Under the pieces are notes generated by a model that worked only from the letters and a program-made list of their open reading frames with translations, had not been told where the DNA came from and ran no database searches. 64,000 nucleotides of DNA from Streptomyces sp. NBC_00376. Lineage in GTDB: Bacteria > Actinomycetota > Actinomycetes > Streptomycetales > Streptomycetaceae. Location of the stretch: the NCBI RefSeq assembly GCF_036077095.1, contig NZ_CP107960.1, positions 4,588,001-4,652,000 on the forward strand, given 5' to 3'. Positions 61,696 through 64,000 of the stretch are shown here, in pieces. Both the position numbers and the translations under genes were made by a program. The stretch's first letter is position 1. Each line of letters starts with the position of its first letter.

Positions 61696-62142
61696 GTGGA
61701 CGGCCGACGACGCAATCCGTACGAACTGACCGATGAATCCCCGGTGTACGTGATCTCGATCGCGGCCCAGCTCTCGGGCCTGCACCCGCAGACACTGCGC
61801 CAGTACGACCGTCTCGGCCTCGTCTCGCCCGACCGCACGGCCGGGCGCGGCAGGCGCTACTCGGCCCGCGACATCGAGCTGTTGCGCACCGTGCAGCAGC
61901 TGTCGCAGGACGAGGGCATCAACCTCGCCGGCATCAAGCGCATCATCGAGCTGGAGAACCAGGTTGCCGCGCTCCAGCAGCGCGTCGCCGAGCTCTCGGC
62001 GGCGGTGGACGGCGCGGCACAGGCGATGCAGCAGCGCGAGGCCCAGGTGCACGCCTCGTACCGGCGCGATCTGGTGCCCTATCAGGACGTGCAGCAGACC
62101 AGCGCGCTGGTGGTCTGGCGGCCGAAGCGGCCGAAGGACTGA
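61696..62142 (+). CDS. hspR: heat-shock repressor HspR (MerR family)
   Basis: 148 aa. The HTH is PVYVISIAAQLSGLHPQTLR, then QYDRLGLVSPDRTAGRGRRY, followed by a coiled coil (ELENQVAALQQRVAELSAAV). It starts one base after the dnaJ stop. HspR binds the HAIR sites upstream of dnaK, and DnaK-bound HspR represses its own operon. Confidence 0.98.
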   Translation: MDGRRRNPYELTDESPVYVISIAAQLSGLHPQTLRQYDRLGLVSPDRTAGRGRRYSARDIELLRTVQQLSQDEGINLAGIKRIIELENQVAALQQRVAELSAAVDGAAQAMQQREAQVHASYRRDLVPYQDVQQTSALVVWRPKRPKD

Positions 62143-62243: not shown

Positions 62244-63230
62244 TCAGCGCTGTTCCTCCTCCAGCATCCCCGACCGTGCTATCAGATAGCCGAGCTGGGC
62301 CCGGCTGTTGCTGCCGAGCGCGGCGGCGAGCTTGGCGACGTGGGCCCGGCAGGTGCGGACGTTCATGCCGAGGCGGCGGGCGATGGAGTCGTCCACATGG
62401 CCCTCCACGAGGAGCTGGGCGATGGAGCGCTGCACCCCGCTGATGCCCAGGGAGGTCGGTTCGTACTTGACCTCCTCCCGCAGCGGAGCCGCTCTGGTCC
62501 AGAGCTGCTCGAACACGTTGGCCAGGTACTGCACGAGCCCGGGGTGGCGGAGTTCCAGGGCGACTTGGTCGTCGTCACTGGCAGGGATGAAGGCGACGGC
62601 CCGGTCGAACACGATCAGGCGGCCGATGAGCTCTTCGAGCGTGCGTATCTCCACGTTGCCGTCGGTCATGCGTTCCGCGTACGCGAGTGTGCTGGGGCTG
62701 TGGCGCGCGGTGTGCTGGTAGAGGGTGCGCATGCCGACGCCGCGGTGGATCACGGACAGGCCGCGTTCCAGTGACTTGCTGAGACGATGCTCGGTCCGGC
62801 CGCCGCCGGGCTGGACGGTGAGCACTTCGGTGCGGCACTCTGCGGTGGCGAGATCGAGGGCCGCGTTGATCCGGTTCCCGCCCTCCAGCACGGTGATGGC
62901 GTGGGTGCTGGGCGGCCCCAGAGTGCTGATGTCCATGAACGGCTCGAACGATTCAGTCAGTTCGACCGAGTGCCGGCGCCGTTCCAGGATCTCGCGCTCG
63001 ATGGGATACAGATGTTGTGCGAGAGCGGTGGTCGGTGGAACGGGCCGGAGCCAGGCCGGGTCGTCCGGATCGGGATGCAGTAGCGCGAACTCCATCAGGC
63101 AGGGCGCCGGTTCCACTTCGGCGCGGGCGATGCGTCCCAGCCGCAAAGCGCTGGCGTAAAGGCGTGCTCCCGCGTCGCACAGTTCGGTGATCCCATGAGA
63201 ATGTGTCGGCTTTGTGTTGCTTGTGGTCAT
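62244..63230 (-). CDS. LuxR-type transcriptional regulator
   Basis: 328 aa. The C-terminal ~65 residues form a LuxR HTH (VQRSIAQLLVEGHVDDSIAR, then RLGMNVRTCRAHVAKLAAAL). Residues 1-250 form an uncharacterised helical/PLD-like sensor region (STHAITVLEGGNRINAALDL, then VLTVQPGGGRTEHRLSKSLE). It has no receiver domain and no phosphoacceptor Asp. GGGGG lies before the ATG. It is divergent from the DIGW-repeat gene with 110 bp between them, so it is the likely regulator of that gene. Confidence 0.88.
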   Translation of the reverse strand: MTTSNTKPTHSHGITELCDAGARLYASALRLGRIARAEVEPAPCLMEFALLHPDPDDPAWLRPVPPTTALAQHLYPIEREILERRRHSVELTESFEPFMDISTLGPPSTHAITVLEGGNRINAALDLATAECRTEVLTVQPGGGRTEHRLSKSLERGLSVIHRGVGMRTLYQHTARHSPSTLAYAERMTDGNVEIRTLEELIGRLIVFDRAVAFIPASDDDQVALELRHPGLVQYLANVFEQLWTRAAPLREEVKYEPTSLGISGVQRSIAQLLVEGHVDDSIARRLGMNVRTCRAHVAKLAAALGSNSRAQLGYLIARSGMLEEEQR

Positions 63231-63340
63231 ATCGTCACCCCCCAGGTTCCTGAACATGCAAGAACATGATGCATCTACGCGGTGGTGCTTGCGTGCCCAG
63301 GTGAGACATCGTCTTAGGTGCGGGGGAGAAGAATCCACAA

Positions 63341-63733
63341 GTGAGGACGAAGCCGACTATGTATAAGCGAATGCATCGCTCGGCGCTTGCCGTCTCGTTC
63401 GTCGCGGCCCTGGGGATCGGGCTGCTGGGCGGCAGCGACATTGGCTGGAGCGAGGACAGCGTTGCCGGTGGCGACATCGGGTGGGCCGTCCAGGCCGCAG
63501 CCGACGGTGACATCGGCTGGCCGGTCGCGCCTGCCAAGTCGTCCGACATCGGGTGGGTCGTCCAGGCCTCGGCCGACGGTGACATCGGCTGGCCGGTCGC
63601 ACCTTCCAAGTCGTCCGACATCGGTTGGGTCTCGCCCGCCAAGTCGTCCGACATCGGTTGGGTCTCGCCCACCGACATCGGCTGGGTCTCGCCCACCGGT
63701 ACCGGATCCGCCACGGCCCGCACAGGCGCATGA
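63341..63733 (+). CDS. exported DIGW-repeat peptide
   Basis: 130 aa. A basic N-terminus (MRTKPTMYKRMHRS) and a hydrophobic segment ALAVSFVAALGIGLLGG form a signal peptide or membrane anchor. Eight DIGW motifs follow at residues 33, 45, 57, 69, 81, 93, 104 and 112; the first six have an exact 12-residue period. Links between them are Val/Ala/Pro/Ser-rich with Lys. No Cys is present. The GTG start is used; ATG 63359 and 63371 are alternatives that keep the hydrophobic segment. The stop overlaps the next gene (ATGA). I know of no described family; it looks like a multi-core precursor or repeat surface peptide. Confidence 0.8.
   Translation: MRTKPTMYKRMHRSALAVSFVAALGIGLLGGSDIGWSEDSVAGGDIGWAVQAAADGDIGWPVAPAKSSDIGWVVQASADGDIGWPVAPSKSSDIGWVSPAKSSDIGWVSPTDIGWVSPTGTGSATARTGA
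63437..63685 (+). repeat. 36-bp-period coding repeat (DIGW units)
   Basis: The GACATCGGNTGG motif recurs eight times, and a longer ~60-bp block is nearly identical in two consecutive copies (about 63507-63570 and 63579-63642), indicating recent expansion by unequal exchange. Confidence 0.9.
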
Positions 63734-64000
63734 CCATCCCGCCGGACGACCGGACCTTCCGGCGAGAGATGGCCACGGCCTACCGATCAGGCTGGCATTT
63801 CATCGATCTCGTCACTGCCATCCCCCACTGTGGCGACTCGTTGATGGTCACTCTGTTCGGCGACCCCATCGTTGTCGCACGTGAAGAAGACGACGAAGTG
63901 CGCGCGTACCGCTGCCTCCGCAAGCCGCGTGGAGCCCCGCAGCCCGTTCGCTGCGCGATCCGGTACGACATGATCTTCGTCAACCTCGACCGGCGGGACC
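63730..64000 (+). CDS. Rieske-like protein, N-terminal part (runs off the window)
   Basis: The visible 90 residues start MTIPPDDRTFRREMATAYRS and read GWHFIDLVTAIPHCGDSLMV, then FGDPIVVAREEDDEVRAYRC and end RYDMIFVNLDRRD. This order of strands matches the Rieske domain of ring-hydroxylating oxygenases, including FVNLD. The expected CxH and CxxH ligands are CLR (62-64) and CAIR (75-78), so both His are Arg. The ATG overlaps the stop of the DIGW gene by 4 bp (ATGA), implying co-translation. The rest of the protein is not visible. Confidence 0.55.
   Translation, partial: MTIPPDDRTFRREMATAYRSGWHFIDLVTAIPHCGDSLMVTLFGDPIVVAREEDDEVRAYRCLRKPRGAPQPVRCAIRYDMIFVNLDRRD

Follow-up and report, generated by a model that had tools for sequence, protein, structure and literature searches.

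The subject of this study is a three-gene module in a 64,000-nt stretch of the genome of Streptomyces sp. NBC_00376 (the window, to which all position numbers refer). It lies by hspR and clpB and consists of a divergently transcribed gene for a regulator with a LuxR-type tail, a gene for a peptide with DIGW repeats, and a translationally coupled gene for a Rieske-like protein. The module probably specifies a peptide ligand together with its own receptor: the repeated tetrapeptide motif, here called the word, is coupled residue by residue to the neighbouring regulator, as would be expected of a ligand and the protein that binds it. Judging from the sequences, it is very likely indeed that the regulator recognises the word. 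No published description of the system was found among the open-access PMC papers that were searched.

The word and its co-variation with the regulator

Loci were gathered through the Rieske-like protein. The best 150 of 248 matching Streptomyces genomes provided 129 loci, which with L004–L006 made 132, the best-scoring matches; 20 of the 150 were kept aside as a first held-out set, and L007 was omitted as it lies on the same contig as L038. A repeat peptide, ending −5 to +10 bp from the start of the Rieske-like gene, was found in 131 of the 132 fetched loci with a wider filter, which was used for the counts, and in 119 with a narrower one; L107, from which no peptide was obtained, is the sole exception. 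Co-variation counts were made on 129 loci after removal of L098 and L127, whose regulators are truncated. The 129 regulators include one pair and one triple of identical sequences (five rows in all), and removal of 28 near-identical loci for the analysis of mutual information left 101.

In the window peptide DIGW begins at residues 27, 39, 51, 63, 75, 87, 98 and 106 (spacings 12, 12, 12, 12, 12, 11 and 8), so the initial annotation was right to describe eight copies, six of them at an exact 12-residue period, in a peptide free of Cys; in 20,000 shuffles of its residues any 4-mer occurred at most four times. Among the 131 related peptides, 13 have one Cys. The copies are encoded by varied codons (GACATTGGCTGG, GACATCGGGTGG, GACATCGGTTGG and others), and since they differ in synonymous codons they are not simply a fresh DNA duplication. 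Across loci the motif takes the form [D/E/N]-x-x-W, and 174 loci between them use 38 different words; the search pattern was [DEN]xxW, so that motif residues 1 and 4 are fixed by construction (copies lacking them being uncounted) and residues 2 and 3 are free. Copy number, for which a comparison between strains had been proposed, does vary, from 1 to 10, with a single copy in 22 of the 131 peptides. Among the 109 multi-copy peptides, 102 carry one word only. At the two free positions, 719 copy pairs show 480 synonymous against 13 amino-acid differences, and the residues flanking the word differ in about half to three quarters of the pairs, which indicates that the four residues are the functional unit. 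Selection keeps all word copies within one peptide in agreement, while the words change between species. The word falls within the last five residues of 26 of the 131 peptides, and there are peptides of about 60 amino acids (aa) with a single C-terminal word.

The regulator follows these changes closely. In the 101 non-redundant loci, mutual information with motif residue 2 was highest at regulator residue 136 (z 9.5), followed by 157 (z 7.0), and the best column of the Rieske-like protein reached z 1.6. When words are named by motif residue 2, the 174 loci fall into a simple pattern: S-words go with M136/D157 (59/59), T-words with V136/D157 (35/35) and P-words with L136 and V, M or L at 157 (29/29), and I-, V- and L-words go with V136 in 50 of 51 cases and never with D157. 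The chemistry suggested by these residues is sensible, in that Asp would pair with hydroxyl words and the larger residue at 136 with the smaller Ser. Motif residue 3 is inversely related to the size of regulator residue 153 (Spearman −0.66 over the 174 loci, uncorrected for phylogeny), and motif residue 1 (D, E or N) tracks regulator residue 219 (phi 0.82).

The rule for residues 136 and 157 was written down before the first 20 held-out loci were read. A second set of 20, and five loci that were additional or divergent, raised the held-out total to 45; residue 157 was predicted correctly in 45 of these and residue 136 in 44. Of these, L180–L184 were chosen with part of the peptide data known (L180, L183, L184) and their receptor residues were read afterwards, and the second set was drawn from S. 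violaceoruber query matches and has Ser or Thr in 19 of its 20 words. For two genomes, G050 and G105, reading began with the receptor, which showed the pattern of Pro-words (L136/V157), and the peptides were then found to end in DPAWD. L181–L184 (G050, G105, G184, G047) form a divergent clade, with single-word peptides ending DPTWG or DPAWD.

In the 1,120 pairs of loci that share 80% identity or more, the held-out loci among them, residue 136 separates words almost perfectly (phi 0.99), and the next column reaches 0.40; of five exceptions, the four printed ones pair V- with L-words, both with V136. On a tree, where branches were either all treated alike or weighted by change counts, 17 of 18 changes at 136 fall on word-change branches, the next best columns giving 5/8 and 9/32, and 13 Ser/Thr switches could be placed, some between receptors more than 90% identical. 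A plus-strand paralogue of the regulator, a few kilobases off, keeps V136/A157 unchanged in all 10 of the loci examined that have S- or T-words, and this constancy speaks against an artefact of lineage. What was computed here is co-evolution at the level of residues, and physical binding of the word by the receptor may underlie it. As a natural record of ligand–receptor co-evolution, the code linking residues 136 and 157 to motif residue 2 is unusually clean.

Gene layout, predicted regulator fold and distribution

The coordinates of the module are collected in Table 1. The peptide stop codon (TGA, 63731–63733) overlaps the start of the Rieske-like gene (ATG, 63730–63732) in an ATGA at 63730–63733, as had been noticed at the outset. 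The distance of 110 bp originally given between the divergent genes holds for the GTG start at 63341; from the conserved ATG of the regulator (63230) to that of the peptide it is 128 bp. The signal or anchor segment reported ahead of the repeats also recurs in related peptides, since an export-type N-terminus, called from composition, is present in 128 of 131 (a hydrophobic 15-mer of mean Kyte–Doolittle value above 1.6 after at least one K or R).

Table 1. Features of the module and of its left neighbour in the window.
Feature	Positions	Strand	Remarks
hspR (MerR-type, after dnaK-grpE-dnaJ), left neighbour	61696..62142	+	
Regulator (putative receptor) gene	62244..63230	-	328 aa; stop 62244-62246; orthologue adjacent in 131/131 loci
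Codon of regulator residue 157 (Gly here)	62760..62762	-	Asp at each of the 94 loci with Ser or Thr words
Codon of regulator residue 153 (Ser here)	62772..62774	-	inverse size relation to motif residue 3
Codon of regulator residue 136 (Val here)	62823..62825	-	tracks motif residue 2
Candidate operator GAACATGCAAGAACATG, direct repeat of GAACATG	63252..63268	+	between the divergent genes; strong conservation, alignment of 131 loci
Propeptide gene	63359..63733	+	124 aa from conserved ATG; GTG 63341 is an alternative start
N-terminal segment, residues 1-26 (signal or anchor)	63359..63436	+	basic and hydrophobic, from composition
DIGW copy 1	63437..63448	+	
DIGW copy 2	63473..63484	+	
DIGW copy 3	63509..63520	+	
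DIGW copy 4	63545..63556	+	
DIGW copy 5	63581..63592	+	
DIGW copy 6	63617..63628	+	
DIGW copy 7	63650..63661	+	
DIGW copy 8	63674..63685	+	
Rieske-like protein gene, first part	63730..64000	+	106 aa; end at window-equivalent 64050 (L004:8051, same genome)

The regulator is predicted to comprise an N-terminal winged-helix-like part, a coiled coil, a TrmB/PLD-like ligand domain (about residues 112–246) and a LuxR-type helix-turn-helix (HTH; about 265–305). Its structure model (mean predicted local distance difference test score 79) matches the TrmB/PLD and LuxR-HTH folds, and the tail matches VqmA by fold. A Pfam scan at E<=1 gave neither a TPR nor an autoinducer-binding domain; the GerE HTH of the window regulator scores 18.9 bits, below the cut-off of 23.5, and two tandem paralogues exceed it (27.9 and 37.8 bits). 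Between hspR and the receptor gene there are none to several such tandem paralogues (L216–L235). Those on the minus strand have D157 in all nine readable cases at Ser/Thr-word loci (L218_m4 and L230_m2 were unreadable), and to judge by this residue they may read the same word as the receptor. Elsewhere, at L168:6599-7702, a regulator of the same family stands beside a fumarase-like gene and diverges from an MFS-like gene (both named by eye); no second repeat peptide was seen by it among open reading frames (ORFs) of at least 110 aa, so that a short one is possible.

Matches to the Rieske-like protein were found in 248 of 295 Streptomyces genomes, and with another query in 327 of 392; these samples overlap, and a few weak matches (e.g., G048, G439) may be other proteins. 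The Rieske-like protein is better conserved than the peptide, which as a query matched only 77 of the 295. A protein search with the peptide gave 14 relatives, and all eight records that name an organism are from Streptomyces; three public repeat-peptide records (P0002, P0004, P0006) are labelled '5'-nucleotidase', which looks like a propagated misannotation. A Rieske-like profile matched 30 of 121 Streptomycetaceae genomes, six of them outside Streptomyces, and from their sequences these six, weak and partial within frames of 389–672 aa, are most likely true oxygenases. It had been asked whether the three genes always accompany each other, and across the examined loci they do occur together: the regulator adjoins the peptide in 131 of 131 loci (three matches being short, 213–281 aa). 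At E<=1e-60 it was absent from all 24 Streptomyces tested among those that lack the Rieske-like gene (27 more genomes had no Rieske-like match either), as it was from all 15 genomes tested from outside the genus. Of six Rieske-positive genomes put to the same test, five had it; the exception was G048, whose Rieske-like match is weak.

Proposed mechanism and its rivals

In the mechanism proposed here, a propeptide with 1–10 copies of a species-specific [D/E/N]-x-x-W word (DIGW in the window) would be exported and cut into short word-containing peptides. The cell would then take these up again, and the product of the divergent gene would bind them. This receptor would be a transcription factor that combines a TrmB/PLD-like ligand domain with a LuxR-type HTH at its C-terminus; in the ligand domain, strand residue 136 and helix residues 153 and 157 may border the site at which motif residues 2 and 3 are recognised. 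The bound receptor would alter transcription at the conserved intergenic element, and its output could extend, directly or through other genes, to antibiotic production. Binding, export, processing, re-import and output are inferred, as is the role of the coupled Rieske-like protein; the ligand–receptor pair is the firmer part of the proposal, and for the complete circuit of export and import we consider the balance to be favourable by a smaller measure. At a little above even chances stands the broadest form, a genus-wide peptide language in which most species send out a word from a 1–10-copy propeptide, a TrmB-like receptor reads it, receptor residue 136 switches the accepted word between Ser, Thr, Pro and branched residues, and each strain hears mainly its own kind and sets its antibiotics accordingly. 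Gamma-butyrolactones are the main known means of communication in Streptomyces; a conserved peptide signal, encoded by a gene and written in a species code that can be read, would, if true, add a new layer to it, and which words switch antibiotic clusters on or off would become directly testable.

A link to antibiotic production comes from S. violaceoruber, to whose species group S. coelicolor belongs. The peptide of this species ends in DTIWS, and in one S. violaceoruber genome (G246) the stretch from hspR to the module holds ORFs of 372 aa, 394 aa (+) and 327 aa (-), the latter two with GerE domains above the Pfam cut-off. The 372-aa ORF, which lies between hspR and the regulator paralogues, is periplasmic-binding-protein-like (Peripla_BP_4; L247:4410-5528). 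A S. coelicolor signal imported by BldK (about 655 Da) was considered as DTIWS, for which a mass of about 620 Da was computed by hand; the two do not fit, and nothing was built on this. In S. coelicolor, clpB is SCO3661 and hspR is SCO3668, according to the gene designations in PMC2631018, and the sizes listed for SCO3666 and SCO3665 in PMC3282765 match the 394-aa and 327-aa ORFs; from gene positions and sizes between clpB and hspR, the receptor is by position SCO3664. The sub-threshold GerE score of the window regulator would fit the absence of SCO3664 from the table of LuxR regulators in PMC3282765. SCO3664 ('regulator') appears in PMC6585502 among the genes whose insertion raised actinorhodin more than 50-fold. 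The link suggests a handle for waking silent clusters.

Several observations weigh against the ligand–receptor and signalling proposal. Two words are mixed in 7 of the 109 multi-copy peptides, and mixed arrays also occur among the held-out loci (L196, L197). One locus with DLGW, L209, has A136; tracking of motif residue 3 is spread across several regulator residues (best phi 0.53); and an accessory rule, 'motif I with V160', failed in the only new I-word locus, L180. When the larger tree is used, a change of word accompanies a change at 157 in only 4 of 10 cases (p=0.003), so that 157 is weaker than 136, and D157 also occurs beside an I-word, in the tandem paralogue L221_m2. Within the module, no gene could be recognised for a protease, an exporter or an importer, and the composition of the N-terminus is the basis on which the peptide appears to be exported. 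The GAACATGCAAGAACATG element has a single exact copy in the genome, within the module itself; a search of the window's own genome gave, beyond the module, one match with two mismatches, which is the control level, so this single occurrence of the candidate operator reveals no regulon. Finally, SCO3664 was identified from synteny and size in the genome of a relative, and its phenotype comes from transposon insertions, for which polar effects are possible.

The rival that survives best, although we consider it unlikely, is an intracellular sensor of secretion or folding stress, in which overloaded export or chaperones would leave retained precursor repeats to bind the receptor, with no extracellular signal. 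The module does lie beside chaperone genes, with clpB, its right neighbour outside the window, following in 21 of 21 longer stretches and hspR, behind dnaK-grpE-dnaJ, preceding in 17 of 21 (it was not within reach of the other four); co-evolution of receptor and word is equally compatible with binding inside the cell, and no importer was recognised nearby. Such a sensor gives no reason, however, for 38 words or 13 Ser/Thr switches, nor for a word at the extreme C-terminus of 26 peptides, and identity within a peptide combined with change between species better fits discrimination between neighbours.

The Rieske-like protein bears on the next alternative, a multi-core precursor of a ribosomally synthesised and post-translationally modified peptide (RiPP) tailored by an oxygenase, which the initial annotation had entertained and to which the repeats with their conserved Trp and the translational coupling lend some appeal. 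The protein does resemble the N-terminal part of Rieske oxygenase alpha subunits, so the description of this neighbour as oxygenase-like stands to that extent, but the Cys-x-His and Cys-x-x-His ligand pairs occur in none of 131 loci and, at 106 aa, it is missing the catalytic domain. It can be aligned to the Rieske domain of ring-hydroxylating oxygenases as far as the first ligand region, after which the cluster loops are passed over, and the Pfam Rieske score is below threshold (13.5 bits against a cut-off of 20.3). His23, Cys62, Cys75 and His91 are kept in 128–131 of 131 proteins, outside the ligand motifs; Cys62 and Cys75 are lost in some A1 sequences. Over the first 34 loci, among which two genomes count twice, identity is 75–100%, and 128 of 131 proteins end in PRSA; in the DPxW clade the protein is more divergent, with SITPHCA in place of PRSA in L181–L184. 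As a reader of specificity it was rejected, with best phi values of 0.23, 0.38 and 0.21 for motif residues 2, 1 and 3. No other modification enzyme was recognised in the module, to which this search was confined, and 22 of 131 peptides are single-copy. With ligands and catalytic domain missing and co-variation weak, a tailored RiPP was set aside as very improbable. Word specificity is unlikely to be the job of the Rieske-like protein, and a chaperone, tuner or receptor partner is possible. Between the module and clpB, a pyridoxamine-oxidase-like gene (PNPOx_N; L004:8194-8604, -) is present in 18 of 21 stretches and missing in three.

Two further alternatives have still slimmer prospects. A bacteriocin-like or kin-discrimination peptide, with the receptor sensing the self peptide and the Rieske-like protein protecting, would suit species-specific words, a tightly coupled third gene and a sub-threshold Pfam Imm35 match in one relative (P0106; E 0.018, 15.6 bits against 27.5), but the third protein hardly co-varies with the word and a defence library gave no match at E<=0.01. 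A repeat peptide of the cell surface or matrix, controlled by the regulator without being its ligand, agrees with the signal-like N-terminus, variable copy number and short linkers and leaves both the word–receptor code and the peptides of about 60 aa with one C-terminal word unexplained, so it is equally hard to credit.

Comparison with known systems

The ligand–receptor pair proposed here most resembles the RRNPP systems of Firmicutes (PlcR-PapR, Rgg-SHP, Rap-Phr), which employ a short, species-specific word that co-evolves with its receptor; the word described here is likewise short and species-specific, C-terminal in some peptides, and co-evolving with its receptor. Both have adjacent genes for a short export-type propeptide and a DNA-binding receptor, the two-gene layout of RRNPP systems being outlined in PMC10075063. 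The RRNPP receptor, however, is a TPR protein, whereas the regulator shows no TPR but a TrmB/PLD-like domain and a LuxR-type HTH, and the present module also differs in its often multi-copy [DEN]xxW, its coupled Rieske-like gene and its Streptomyces host. It is therefore RRNPP-like in its presumed working but, because the receptor fold differs, not an RRNPP member.

The regulator resembles the archaeal TrmB and TrmBL2 proteins in its PLD-like effector domain, and its model also has in common with them a long helix and, at the N-terminus, a helix-strand part; TrmBL2 is also a weak sequence match (E 0.013). The C-terminal LuxR-type HTH is an addition not seen in TrmB, and the TrmB domain is described as sugar-binding (in the title of 2f5t), whereas the co-evolution of word and receptor argues for a peptide as the ligand here. 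Receptors of the LuxI/LuxR type and VqmA have a ligand domain of another fold, and, unlike LuxI/LuxR systems, the module has no recognised synthase gene, its proposed ligand being gene-encoded. The third gene shares with the alpha subunits of Rieske non-haem oxygenases the N-terminal helix and beta strands of the Rieske domain, and departs from them in its short length and in having neither ligand pair nor catalytic domain. To our knowledge, this would be the first class of peptide pheromones to be read by a PLD-like domain.
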